Assembly: GCF_000422785.1 (NCBI RefSeq)
Contig: NZ_AUGS01000005.1
Coordinates: 124,001 to 188,000, forward strand
Direction: 5' to 3'
Length of the DNA stretch: 64,000 nt
From: Pseudovibrio exalbescens DSM 16456
Lineage (GTDB): Bacteria; Pseudomonadota; Alphaproteobacteria; Rhizobiales; Stappiaceae
Numbering within the stretch: the first letter of the stretch is position 1; each line of letters starts with the position of its first letter. A program made the position numbers and the translations under genes. Shown here piece by piece: positions 1-47,005 of the stretch. The notes beneath the pieces were generated by a model. That model was not told the DNA's origin and ran no database searches. It was given only the letters and a program-made list of their open reading frames with translations.

Positions 1-359
1 CCAGTGACCGGGTAGGGCAGGATCACGGAGAGCAAGTGCAGCGCGGTATGAACGCGCATGAGCTTGTAGCGCCGCGCCCAGTCCACGTGCAGGGTAATTG
101 TGTCTCCGACCATAGGTGCAGCACTACCATCAGCCAGTTGATGTTGAATGGTTTTTCGATCTTCGCCGTAAAAGGTATTGACTATGGTGAGCTTGGTGCC
201 GTTACCCAATTCCATTTGCCCACAGTCGCCCGGTTGGCCACCGCCGCTTGGGTAGAAGACCGTTCGATCCAGAACCACGTTGTTCCCCTCCAGCACATCG
301 ACAATCTTGGCTTCGCATGAGCGTAAGTAGGCGTCATCGTGGAACAGGGCTTCAGTCAT
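1..359 (-). CDS. Alanyl-tRNA editing protein, AlaX type (partial, cut by left edge)
   Basis: A free-standing relative of the AlaRS editing domain, expected to hydrolyse mischarged tRNA(Ala) in the cytosol. About the first 119 residues are present. TVFYPSGGGQPG at residues 33-44 is the glycine-rich editing-domain loop, and HTALH at 104-108 is the first half of the zinc-binding histidine pair. The ATG follows GGAG with suitable spacing. It lies upstream of the cardiolipin synthase gene on the same strand. Family assignment is firm; which mischarged amino acid it clears (Ser or Gly) cannot be read from this fragment. Confidence 0.85.
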   Translation of the reverse strand, partial: MTEALFHDDAYLRSCEAKIVDVLEGNNVVLDRTVFYPSGGGQPGDCGQMELGNGTKLTIVNTFYGEDRKTIQHQLADGSAAPMVGDTITLHVDWARRYKLMRVHTALHLLSVILPYPVT

Positions 360-454
360 GGTGGCTCCTTCAGGTTGCACATCTTGTGGCTGTCAGCGTA
401 CGCCGTGTTACGCTCAGGTCAATGGAGTTGGTTTCAAGTGATGAGCTGGTCTGC

Positions 455-1885
455 TTAAAGTATTGGAGAAAACAGCTTGGCGGCCTGACACAGAATGCGA
501 AATGCATACCGTCGGCTGCGCAGTTCCGCCAGGCCGGTCTGGCGGGCATTGTCGAAATCGGTTCGCAGCATACGTGAGGTGTCGTCAATCATCTGAGCGC
601 CTGTGAACCACAGTGTGATCTCGAAGTTGATGTTGAAGGAGCGGTTGTCAAAGTTCACTGTGCCTATACCGGCCAAGTGATCGTCAACGAGGATAACCTT
701 CTGGTGCAGGAAGCCTTCCTGATACCGGTAGATCTTGATGCCATGGTCGATAAGATCGTCTGCGTGGGCATAACTGGCCAACCAGACAAGGCGATGATCC
801 GCCTTTTCCGGCAACAGGATACGCACATCTACGCCGCGCAGGGCCGCCGCATAGAGAGCAGTGAGCACTTCGATGCCGGGGACAAAATAAGGGCTGACGA
901 TCCAAAGGCGGTCGCGGGCTCGTGAAATGGTTTCAGCAAAGGCGATGGAGCAGTCTTCAATCGGATCGGCCGGGCCAGTGGGCATAACCAGAACCGGTTG
1001 ATTGCCGGGAGTTTCCAGTGTCTCCGGAAGGGCCACATCCAGCAGGGAGCCTGTTGCCCATTGCCAGTCTTCTGCAAATGACAGAGCTGCGGCAATTGTC
1101 GCTGGTCCATCTACCCGCACATGGGTATCTCTCCAACGGCCGAGTGCTTTGGAGCGCCCCAGATATTCTCGTCCGATATTGTGGCCGCCAACCCAGCACT
1201 GTTTGGCATCTACCACTACCACCTTGCGATGATTGCGATAATTCAGGCGCATGGGCCCCAATAGGCGCAGCAAGCGATGGCGCTTGTTGAAGCCACTGAC
1301 TTTTACGCCGGCGTTGCGCAGACGGTTGATATAGCCGCGAGACAGCGAGCGCGAGCCCACATCGTCATAAAGAAAGTAGATGGTGACACCTTCCCGGGCC
1401 TTGTCGATCAGGGCATCCGCCAGAGCCTGACCAACTTCGTCATCGCGTACAATGAAGAATTGGACGAGGATAAAATGCTGTGCCGCGCGAATGCCTTCCA
1501 GAATGGACCTGAACGTGGCTTCCCCATCAATGAGCAGGCGGCAGTCGTTGCCCTTGAGAAACGGCAGGGGGGTAATTCTATTATGTACGGGCCACGTCTC
1601 GTTGGCCTCATGGTCAATCAGAACGCCATGGCGGCGATTGACGTCTTGCTCGAAGGAACTGAGGCCACGTTGGATTTCGCCATAATCATCAAAGCGCTTC
1701 CATGCAAAGATGAGATACAGGAATGCCGTGGGAAACGGGAGGAAAAACAGGGAGAGCAACCATGCAATGCTACCCTCCGACGTGCGCCCCCACATGATTT
1801 CGCGGGACGCGCAGACGATGGCGAGGCCGTAGATGAAGGCTGTGACAAGGGCAACAATCGTTACCGTGCTGAAGAAACCATCCAT
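455..1885 (-). CDS. cls: Cardiolipin synthase (phospholipase D superfamily)
   Basis: Membrane phospholipase D-type enzyme that joins phosphatidylglycerol molecules, or a related donor pair, to make cardiolipin. Two hydrophobic segments occupy roughly the first 65 residues, as in bacterial Cls. Two HKD motifs follow: HRKVVVVD near residue 220 and HQKVILVDD near 395. The length of 476 residues is normal. A TTG nine bases upstream is in frame but abuts the GGCAGGAG ribosome-binding site, so the ATG giving MDGFFSTV is the better start. It lies between cysK and AlaX, all on the minus strand. Substrate preference is inferred from the family. Confidence 0.9.
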   Translation of the reverse strand: MDGFFSTVTIVALVTAFIYGLAIVCASREIMWGRTSEGSIAWLLSLFFLPFPTAFLYLIFAWKRFDDYGEIQRGLSSFEQDVNRRHGVLIDHEANETWPVHNRITPLPFLKGNDCRLLIDGEATFRSILEGIRAAQHFILVQFFIVRDDEVGQALADALIDKAREGVTIYFLYDDVGSRSLSRGYINRLRNAGVKVSGFNKRHRLLRLLGPMRLNYRNHRKVVVVDAKQCWVGGHNIGREYLGRSKALGRWRDTHVRVDGPATIAAALSFAEDWQWATGSLLDVALPETLETPGNQPVLVMPTGPADPIEDCSIAFAETISRARDRLWIVSPYFVPGIEVLTALYAAALRGVDVRILLPEKADHRLVWLASYAHADDLIDHGIKIYRYQEGFLHQKVILVDDHLAGIGTVNFDNRSFNINFEITLWFTGAQMIDDTSRMLRTDFDNARQTGLAELRSRRYAFRILCQAAKLFSPIL

Positions 1886-1957
1886 GCGATACAACTCCTG
1901 CCCGCATGGATATCATATTCGACCGGGAAGGGAAGCTATGAAACCTTCGGTTTTCGT

Positions 1958-3001
1958 CTAAGCTTCCTCGGTGGTAAAGGGAACGGGAATATCGAGTGTG
2001 GTCTCCATCCATTTTGGACTTGGAAGGCCCTTTGATTTCAAGAAGTTGGGATTGTACAACTTGGATTGATAGCGGGTGCCGTAGTCGCACAATATGGTCA
2101 CAATAGTTTTTCCGGGTCCCATTTCCTGACCCAGTCGAATGGCACCGGCTACATTGATGCCGGAGGAACCGCCAAGGCACAATCCTTCATGTTCGAGCAG
2201 GTCGAAAATGATCTCCAGTGCTTCTGCATCGGGAATCTGGAAGGGGATATCAATCGGAGCGCCCTCCAGATTTGCGGTGATACGCCCCTGGCCAATGCCC
2301 TCTGTTATGGAGGATCCCTCGGACTTCAATTCGCCGTTCTTGTAATAGTTGTAGAGCGCTGCGCCCATGGGGTCTGCAAGGCCAATTGTAATGTTCTTGT
2401 TGCGAGCCTTCAGTCCCTGGCCAACGCCTGAAAGTGTCCCGCCCGTGCCGACGGCACAGATGAAACCATCAATCTTTCCATCGGTTTGCTCGAAGATTTC
2501 AGGTGCCGTCATGGCGATATGGCCATCGCGGTTGGCGGTATTGTCAAACTGGTTGGCCCAGATGGCGCCATTGGGATCAGAGCTTGCCAGCGCCTCGGCA
2601 ATTCGCCCGGAAATCTTGATGTAGTTGTTCGGGTTGCGATAGGGAACAGCAGGCACTTCAATAACCTGTGCGCCCGCAAGGCGGAGCATATCCTTCTTTT
2701 CTTGGCTTTGTGTTTCGGGGATAACAATCACACTGCGAAAACCCAAAGCGTTTCCTACCAGTGCTAGTCCTATGCCGGTGTTTCCCGCTGTGCCTTCCAC
2801 GATAACACCGCCCGGTTTCAGTTTGCCCGACTTGATCGCATCCTGGATGATAAACAGTGCGGCACGATCCTTGACCGACTGGCCAGGATTCATGAACTCT
2901 GCTTTTCCGTAGATATTACAGCCTGTTATCTCGGATGCCTTGCGCAGTTTGATCAGGGGGGTGTTGCCTATGGCGTTAATAACGCTGGAATGGGCGGTCA
3001 T
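1958..3001 (-). CDS. cysK: Cysteine synthase A (PLP-dependent O-acetylserine sulfhydrylase)
   Basis: Makes L-cysteine from O-acetylserine and sulfide in the cytosol. The PLP lysine is Lys44 in NPGQSVKDRA, the substrate loop is GTAGNTG near residue 70, and the phosphate-binding loop is GTGGT near 185. At 347 residues it is about 30-40 longer than E. coli CysK, with a C-terminal extension ending PVPFTTEEA. That is common among alphaproteobacterial members, which are sometimes annotated as cystathionine beta-synthase-like. The ATG start fits the family N-terminus (VINAIGNTPLIKL). It may be cotranscribed with cls, 72 bp downstream. A role in reverse transsulfuration cannot be excluded. Confidence 0.9.
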   Translation of the reverse strand: MTAHSSVINAIGNTPLIKLRKASEITGCNIYGKAEFMNPGQSVKDRAALFIIQDAIKSGKLKPGGVIVEGTAGNTGIGLALVGNALGFRSVIVIPETQSQEKKDMLRLAGAQVIEVPAVPYRNPNNYIKISGRIAEALASSDPNGAIWANQFDNTANRDGHIAMTAPEIFEQTDGKIDGFICAVGTGGTLSGVGQGLKARNKNITIGLADPMGAALYNYYKNGELKSEGSSITEGIGQGRITANLEGAPIDIPFQIPDAEALEIIFDLLEHEGLCLGGSSGINVAGAIRLGQEMGPGKTIVTILCDYGTRYQSKLYNPNFLKSKGLPSPKWMETTLDIPVPFTTEEA

Positions 3002-46199: not shown

Positions 46200-46601
46200 T
46201 TATTCCGTATCTGCGCTGTCAGGTATCCTGCCGAATTTCAGAAGATTGCCATGAGGGTCATGGATATAAAACTCCTTCATGTTCCACGGACGGATCTGAA
46301 AACTGGAAAGCCTTGGCTGCGACTTCCCGTCTGTAGCCAAGTTTTTGGAGGAGAACTCCTCATAAAGCATATCAATGCCTCCACCTCGAACATAAAGGCT
46401 TGAGTTTTCGCAGATCTCTTTGTTCGAGCAATGCCAGAAATGGATTTCCCAGTTATCGCGGCGGAGGATGAGGGTGCTTGTATCTTCATAGATGATTTGA
46501 TCAAAACCAAGCACATCCTGATAGAAGGCTCTTGTTTCGACCAGATCCAGTGAGGGTAGATTGGGCAGGACTTCGATATCACTGTTGGAGGGTGTGCTCA
46601 C
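46200..46601 (-). CDS. VOC family protein, bleomycin-resistance-like
   Basis: A 133-residue single-module vicinal-oxygen-chelate protein. The pattern PSLDLVETRAFYQDVLGFDQ, then ILRRDNWEIHFWHCSNKEIC, ENSSLYVRGGGIDMLYEEF and FYIHDPHGNLLKFGR matches bleomycin-binding or glyoxalase-like members. Resistance is not demonstrated; it may bind another small molecule. The start is GTG, with GAGGCGA upstream. It converges on the solute-binding-protein gene. Confidence 0.85.
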   Translation of the reverse strand: MSTPSNSDIEVLPNLPSLDLVETRAFYQDVLGFDQIIYEDTSTLILRRDNWEIHFWHCSNKEICENSSLYVRGGGIDMLYEEFSSKNLATDGKSQPRLSSFQIRPWNMKEFYIHDPHGNLLKFGRIPDSADTE

Positions 46602-46693
46602 GCTCTGTCGCCTCGTTACGTTTCAGGATCTGCAACAGTAGGGCAGTACAGAGTGTTTTTACAGCTCGCGAGCAGTCACTAGTGAATGGTTAT

Positions 46694-46733
46694 AAAAAAA
46701 CCCCGCTCCCTTCTCGAAGGGACTAGCGGGGTT
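46694..46733 (-). terminator. Strong terminator of the small minus-strand unit
   Basis: AACCCCGCT / AGCGGGGTT enclosing an inner CCCTT-CTCG-AAGGG hairpin. On the minus strand it is followed by TTTTTTT, so transcription from the right must end here although no annotated gene lies there. Confidence 0.88.
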
Positions 46734-46931
46734 TGTTTCGTATTCAGGTTACTGGAGCGCTTGTCAGGTTTGGAAAGCTCTCGAAAGGACGCTTCTTGTT
46801 TGCTGCTCTCAGGTGAACCATTTTTACTCGCGGCCAGAAATTCTGCCGCGCAAAATACATCACTTGTTTATCTCGTGCCACTTCGACAAATCGGGGTTTA
46901 ATCGTGGTGAGCGTCGGAGTCAAAGTGGCCG

Positions 46932-46952
46932 CTAACGGTCTGGTGGACTCAT
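46932..46952 (-). CDS. Candidate six-codon leader ORF (MSPPDR)
   Basis: ATG AGT CCA CCA GAC CGT TAG, with GGGAGG at ideal seven-base spacing and a very short 5' UTR. The initiation signals are better than those of many genes in this window, but the product is only six residues. It could be a stalling leader or the start of a frameshifted gene. Confidence 0.35.
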   Translation of the reverse strand: MSPPDR

Positions 46953-46977
46953 TTTGTAACCTCCCGTCTACCCCTTT

Positions 46978-47005
46978 AATCTAATGGATTTGGGCGGATG
47001 TTCAA
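46978..47005 (-). promoter_or_regulatory. Candidate promoter of the small minus-strand unit
   Basis: TTGAAC, a 16-bp spacer, and TAGATT on the minus strand, placing transcription start about 20 bp before the six-codon ORF. Confidence 0.5.

Follow-up and report, generated by a model that had tools for sequence, protein, structure and literature searches.

A candidate small RNA downstream of glnA in Pseudovibrio with a conserved Met-x-Pro-Pro-(Asp/Asn) mini-ORF

Pseudovibrio is a marine bacterium. In Pseudovibrio exalbescens DSM 16456 (genome size, 4.16 Mb), the minus strand downstream of glnA carries what looks like a complete transcription unit, in which the only frame behind a ribosome-binding site has six codons. 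What does such a unit make, and what is its short frame for? A preliminary description of this DNA had offered three answers: a regulatory RNA with a leader peptide, a small protein behind an upstream ORF (uORF), or a recently frameshifted small gene. We analyzed the element in a 64,000-nucleotide stretch of the genome, hereafter the window, and compared it with its counterparts in related genomes.

A predicted RNA gene downstream of glnA

On the minus strand of the window, the genes lie in the order glnB (P-II), glnA, the RNA element, a small ORF that we take from its motifs to be glyoxalase-like (GLO-like), and tyrS; a solute-binding protein gene (SBP_bac_3) lies among them on the opposite strand. 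The promoter, GGGAGG, ATG, six-codon frame, spacer of about 200 nt and GC hairpin with TTTTTTT were all present where they had been described, as was the TGA, at 46746-46744, that closes the -1 frame. Window coordinates were taken by hand from the position ruler and were partly confirmed by a pattern count. The features are as follows.

47100-47079, between glnA and the promoter of the element: terminator-like site, from a terminator scan
46978-47005, minus strand: promoter TTGAAC-N16-TAGATT (TTGAAC, 47005-47000; TAGATT, 46983-46978), seen in the sequence
46694-46971, minus strand: predicted RNA, whole, with the 5' end estimated from the -10 box (match to covariance model R1, 46694-46977)
46960-46965, minus strand: Shine-Dalgarno (SD) sequence GGGAGG; a GGAG core lies upstream of the ATG in 14 of 14 transcripts
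46932-46952, minus strand: mini-ORF MSPPDR plus stop (ATG AGT CCA CCA GAC CGT TAG), with the conserved unit ATG-x-Pro-Pro-(Asp/Asn)
46877-46932, minus strand: hairpin 1, 3' of the ORF; its arms differ between the window and genome G008 and pair in both
46902-46914, minus strand: 13-nt loop ACGCTCACCACGA, identical in G008 in a two-sequence alignment
46892-46898, minus strand: C-rich motif AACCCCG, a putative seed, from conservation of a C/U-rich motif
46829-46851, minus strand: hairpin 2, from the predicted fold; G008 has a similar hairpin
46694-46731, minus strand: intrinsic terminator, a CCCCGC...GCGGGG hairpin plus T7, from sequence and fold
46200-46601, minus strand: GLO-like small ORF, with no Pfam match at E 0.001

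To place the element among genomes, a 314-base query was used and matched 7 of 61 genomes (its own included): G008 over most of the length at 76% and five at the terminator only. The DNA after glnA was then read in all 16 Pseudovibrio genomes of the genus sample, the window's own among them, and 12 had the full element. Covariance model R1, built from those 12 elements, detected the element in 14 of the 16 genomes, that is, the 12 by construction and two new finds (G011 and G012), both also downstream of glnA. The transcripts of G002 and G004, which are among the 14, are identical. A pattern scan of named genomes returned seven contigs, all from Pseudovibrio, whose transcripts are the same as those of sample genomes: that of P. 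flavus equals G012, P. denitrificans equals G006, P. japonicus equals G014 and P. ascidiaceicola equals G015, among others. Conservation in relatives, on which the preliminary description had made its proposal depend, was thus borne out.

G001 and G013 were without the element, looser filters included, the sole exception being a weak G001 match elsewhere that had no mini-ORF. Weak extra matches in G001 (L107), G012 (L069) and G011 (L109) were read, and none had such a mini-ORF at the match; further weak genus matches (L070, L111, L112, L113 and L114) were left out of this reading. In L107, a 74-codon MNPPN frame does lie about 700 nt from the match but is unrelated.

Outside the genus, R1 matched 1 of 71 genomes from the family's other genera (G028, terminator only) and, besides the window's own, 2 of 296 genomes of the order sample (G363, terminator only; G251, terminator without mini-ORF). 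At E values up to 1, one of seven other-genus genomes was matched (G067, twice; L108 was without mini-ORF, and L110 was left unread). No MxPP[DN] ORF occurred within about 1.5 kb after glnA in 19 other-genus genomes, the flank of G085 being shorter. Filters were stricter in searches of more than 40 genomes, and distant relatives could have escaped these. Plasmids and phages gave no match with either 701 window bases or the G004 element.

Rfam 15 found only seven tRNAs in the window and no family that fits the RNA, in keeping with the earlier statement that no known gene was recognized there. When four loci were searched at E values up to 1, four matches were obtained, all below the gathering score. 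Two of them, at 762-839 and 782-904 on the minus strand of L048 (GmglnB1 5'UTR, 25.3 versus 54 bits; rnk_pseudo, 29.9 versus 55), lie on the strand opposite to the RNA terminator and probably reflect its symmetric hairpin. The other two fall away from the terminator of the element.

The expression signals recur with the element. Taken alone, the window promoter is weak (8 of 12), and a consensus scan of the window listed neither this promoter nor the terminator, returning one promoter-like site elsewhere versus 2.1 expected. Across the 14 transcripts, the best promoter pair always lies 25 to 29 nt upstream of the ATG, with scores of 8 to 10 of 12 that are uncontrolled; the -35 box is TTGAAA in 12 transcripts, TTGAAC in the window and TTGACA in G012. 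The core of the terminator hairpin is kept in the 12 aligned transcripts, and G011 and G012 end in other terminators. The window RNA is about 280 nt long; those of G011 and G012 are longer, at about 400 nt, of which about 390 nt run from the ATG to the end. In the window alone, an SD followed by ATG and PP[D/N] was found once versus 0.06 expected, for a pattern picked post hoc. In 14 of 16 Pseudovibrio genomes, the DNA downstream of glnA has promoter, SD, ATG, PP[DN] and terminator in this order, and the element is therefore more than chance. The attributes of a small-RNA gene (its own promoter, a structured RNA, an intrinsic terminator and conservation) are all present at the level of sequence. 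A stand-alone RNA gene on the minus strand after glnA, with a predicted translated MxPP[DN], is well supported by these comparisons.

The genes around the RNA vary. On the strand of the RNA, the first ORF of 90 codons or more after it is GLO-like and adjoins the RNA in 7 of the 14 genomes; in 5 it is tyrS, and in G012 it is another ORF. In G011 the neighbor is convergent, and no same-strand ORF adjoins the RNA. GLO-like ORFs are also found in G001 and G013, both without the RNA. Across the 14 RNA-bearing loci there is no constant downstream gene. Upstream, the ORFs between glnA and the RNA differ from genome to genome, so this interval gains genes and the RNA persists. G008 (L039, oriented from glnA to tyrS) has two ORFs in this interval, at 447-1259 (-) and 1670-2104 (+), which we take from their motifs to be aldo/keto-reductase-like and IS200/IS605-transposase-like, respectively. 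In G011 (L041 oriented, 311-850, minus strand), a Pro/Asn-rich 179-codon frame (TPVINPNPNPNY) is found there. The 3' end of glnA in L039 (4081-4142, minus strand) gave a weak match to SorX (RF02784; 27.5 bits versus a gathering score of 46.6; E 0.0041).

Conservation of the mini-ORF

The preliminary description had missed the informative part of the six codons, which is Pro-Pro-Asp. M-x-Pro-Pro-(Asp/Asn) opens the mini-ORF in all 14 transcripts, with Asp at codon 5 in 11 and Asn in 3. Beyond it, the length varies from 6 to 13 codons and the later codons drift. The peptides are MSPPDR (window), MTPPDRRQLLEH, MNPPNQWVARL, MSPPNQWVAWL, MTPPDLHVVRCL (two genomes), MTPPDLHVARYL, MIPPDLHVVRRS, MTPPDLHVVRFL (three genomes), MTPPDLHVAWF, MVPPDSPKPSERK and MTPPNQI.

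Changes were counted on the glnA tree for sites -4 to +23. The ATG had none. The first and second positions of codons 3 to 5 had 2 changes in 6 sites, both of them Asp/Asn swaps, versus 8 changes in the 3 third positions and 54 changes in the 19 other sites of the interval (the three third positions included). The Poisson probability is 6e-6, or 3e-9 with the ATG, for codons that were picked after looking. In the 10-genome group, codons 9, 11 and 12 each had three changes at the second position. The later codons thus show replacement changes and drift as amino acids, and conservation apparently does not concern the product. This finding indicates that selection acts on M-x-Pro-Pro-(Asp/Asn) and not on the whole peptide. 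Codon 2 ends in T in 13 of 14 transcripts, which may reflect GGAG:NTCC pairing in the RNA and not coding. Gene boundaries and selection on MxPP[DN], like the RNA structure described below and the variable downstream genes, emerge from comparison of the sequences.

The kept residues form a motif with a published behavior. Of the PPX sequences followed by ribosome profiling in E. coli, PPD and PPN occurred exclusively in the pausing group, according to the portion of the report available to us (PMC4140641). PPN has served as a test motif relieved by EF-P (PMC11611912), and CCA is described as favored in intermediate and strong pausers (PMC8129111). In all 14 mini-ORFs the residue after Pro-Pro belongs to the strong class (Asp or Asn) as defined in PMC4140641, and the first Pro codon is CCA in 12 of 14. 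One EF-P gene is present in each of the eight Pseudovibrio genomes searched. By analogy with the published motif, ribosomes would pause on the mini-ORF. The diproline sites described in the consulted parts of these three papers likewise have Pro-Pro followed by Asp or Asn; they lie inside protein genes or reporters, whereas in Pseudovibrio the motif makes up most of a mini-ORF in a small RNA.

Other frames were also considered. In the window, the -1 frame (46923-46744) is open for 59 codons, and the preliminary description had seen in it either a small protein behind a uORF or the remains of a frameshift. Neither idea held. G008, the nearest relative, has stops in all three frames of the matching segment; an intact version of the protein is found in none of the other 13 transcripts; and the frame is not conserved, so the conserved amino acids that had been named as a sign of a protein are missing. 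A 37-codon TTG frame is present in 7 of 14 transcripts, and G014 shifts into another frame from the same start. This frame was rejected as a gene: its last 26 codons carry 8, 14 and 11 changes at codon positions 1, 2 and 3 in the seven transcripts, with no codon bias, and in the other seven the frame does not run through to that stop. That one of these two frames encodes a small protein, perhaps frameshifted, is thus largely refuted and extremely improbable, the open codons in the window and in half of the transcripts notwithstanding. A gene on the opposite strand was rejected as well. The antisense frame holds stops at differing places (in 11 of the 12 core transcripts, G008 being left out, and in two frames in the window), and later blocks of the 10-genome alignment have no steady three-base pattern (11/10/11, 11/2/5 and 5/8/4 changes).

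Structure of the predicted RNA

Folding of the window RNA gave a z-score of -2.38, with 2 of 200 shuffles as good, which is a moderate signal. Structure was then assessed on the 10-genome alignment, which holds nine distinct sequences. In the consensus fold, 96.0% of cells are paired, versus 94.6% in shuffles and 37 to 45% when the fold is slid. Covariation had been named beforehand as the mark of an RNA, and the result was divided. The covariation score (0.090 versus 0.071 in shuffles) and the number of doubly changed cells (10 versus 3.4) were each reached in 0 of 500 shuffles. The covariation is nevertheless thin, because the 5 doubly changed pairs were reached in 37 of 500 shuffles and the further pair types in 423 of 500, the latter not above shuffles. 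For hairpin 1, 29 of 500 base-shuffled sequences fold equally well in the window and 7 of 500 in G008. Of the three original answers, the regulatory RNA with a leader peptide is the one that the conserved promoter, M-x-Pro-Pro-(Asp/Asn) start, structure and terminator uphold; the uORF protein and the frameshifted gene fall away.

In 11 of 14 transcripts a pattern search placed a C/U-rich motif (AACCCCG, AACCTCT, ACCCTCT and similar) at +55 to +62 from the ATG; the motif was recognized by eye in G009 and is absent at this place in G011 and G012. It might pair with SD sequences of target mRNAs or with the RNA's own SD, the latter being predicted in the folds of G007 and G005. The SD itself pairs with bases just after the ATG in 8 of 14 predicted folds; its partner is the C/U-rich motif in G007 and G005, a segment further down in G011 and an upstream segment in G012. 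In the window and in G008 the SD is partly open, with two and three of its four bases unpaired, respectively. Because the partners differ by species and the SD is partly open in these two RNAs, no single conserved switch is visible. In the predicted folds, SD occlusion is therefore common, without one conserved partner.

Possible function and relation to known systems

On these data it is very probable that the element is a genuine RNA gene, conserved, with a pause-type mini-ORF that is translated, and that in the searches made here it is confined to Pseudovibrio. As for what it does, we tentatively favor a genus-specific small RNA whose 5' pausing mini-ORF affects its folding, its stability or the exposure of its seed; we consider this reading plausible without regarding it as settled. 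Ribosomes would load at the 5' end of the RNA to translate M-x-Pro-Pro-(Asp/Asn). Once Pro-Pro has formed and Asp or Asn is due, a pause is to be expected unless EF-P works quickly. When codon 4 occupies the P site, the ribosome would extend over the RNA from near the SD to about +26, which is the whole ORF of the window. The paused ribosome would therefore cover the mini-ORF (all of it in the window) and sit beside or on the SD, so that this region could not pair with C/U-rich segments elsewhere in the RNA and the 5' end would be shielded. The pace of Pro-Pro translation could then set the folding of the RNA, its lifetime, or the freedom of the C-rich motif to pair with other mRNAs. This gating of fold or stability, and action in trans, are inferences. 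A more specific version is doubtful: the RNA would respond to how fast Pro-Pro-(Asp/Asn) is translated, and hence to EF-P activity or the supply of prolyl-tRNA, and the paused ribosome would switch the fold, expose or hide the C-rich seed and so pass on a translation-state signal that reaches many mRNAs in trans instead of one gene in cis.

Several other readings share part of this evidence. It is unlikely that the element is an ordinary noncoding base-pairing sRNA, in which the ATG and CCNCC are an RNA motif (GGAG:NTCC pairing or a C-rich seed) and translation is irrelevant. The SD pairing just after the ATG, the T that ends codon 2 and the C-rich motif elsewhere in the RNA all agree with it, but the changes follow codons 3 to 5 (third positions are free, only Asp and Asn replace each other, and the ATG is constant), and exchanges among CCA, CCG and CCT are hard to account for by pairing. 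The early Pro-Pro-Asp might instead cause ribosomes to drop off or be destabilized, such that abortive translation and not a lasting pause sets the fate of the RNA. The position of the motif within the first five codons fits this idea, for which the acidic and Pro-rich starts of mgtL (EPDP; PMC11282234) and the 8-codon mgtQ (Asp2, Glu5; PMC8092293) are precedents in the parts of those reports available to us; the nonacidic Asn in 3 of 14 transcripts and the absence of a Mg2+ transporter gene adjoining the RNA in the loci read make it quite unlikely.

That the RNA acts in cis, as an attenuator or leader for the GLO-like gene or tyrS that comes next, is improbable. Such a gene does follow on the same strand in 12 of 14 genomes, and a terminator with a mini-ORF is the usual set of attenuator parts. 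Against it stand the different next gene in G012, the convergent neighbor in G011, the lack of a Tyr codon in the conserved part and the persistence of GLO-like genes in the two genomes without the RNA. Leader codons matching downstream genes, the mark of an amino acid attenuator, are not seen: only Pro-Pro-(Asp/Asn) is kept, and no gene is constant. Nor does the RNA resemble the mRNA of a functional micropeptide, a reading that is very improbable: its translated start is conserved, but only residues 1 and 3 to 5 are kept, in peptides of 6 to 13 residues with later replacements.

Among known systems, the nearest in kind is rnTrpL/peTrpL of Sinorhizobium meliloti, as presented in the available part of PMC7298713. 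It too is an alphaproteobacterial sRNA with a tiny 5' ORF and an intrinsic terminator, and rnTrpL acts in trans. rnTrpL derives from the trpE(G) attenuator, is leaderless and encodes a Trp-rich 14-residue peptide, whereas the Pseudovibrio RNA has an SD and a Pro-Pro-(Asp/Asn) motif and lacks both a run of Trp and a biosynthetic gene in cis. The enterobacterial mgtL and mgtQ, as described in the consulted parts of PMC11282234 and PMC8092293, likewise have very short ORFs whose first codons slow or destabilize the ribosome and thereby alter RNA folding. They act in cis before Mg2+ transporter genes and need acidic residues; the Pseudovibrio RNA has Asn in 3 of 14 cases and no constant gene, and among its adjoining ORFs (glnA, GLO-like, tyrS, SBP_bac_3 and others) no Mg2+ transporter was recognized by eye. 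Dual-function sRNAs such as VcdRP of Vibrio cholerae are also free-standing RNAs with an ORF. VcdRP encodes a 29-residue protein, according to the part of the report consulted (PMC8672173), whereas the Pseudovibrio mini-ORF keeps nothing after residue 5; conservation of a peptide along its length, as in dual-function sRNAs, is not found, with length and all codons after the fifth varying. Judged by titles and the openings of abstracts, none of the open-access papers found that mention both Pseudovibrio and small RNA is about such an RNA. A search of the open-access literature on leader peptides, dual-function RNAs and diproline uORFs found no sRNA with a conserved diproline mini-ORF among the matches listed.

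The restriction to Asp or Asn after Pro-Pro, obtained from genome comparison alone, agrees with the motifs found only at pausing sites in E. coli in the available portion of PMC4140641. The conserved start and Pro-Pro-Asp/Asn suggest that the activity of the RNA depends on ribosome movement along it. In known cases, a leader ORF with a pausing motif works as a cis switch for the one gene behind it. If the favored reading is true, the Pseudovibrio sRNA would be a trans version of the pausing-leader idea and a compact natural reporter of EF-P activity.
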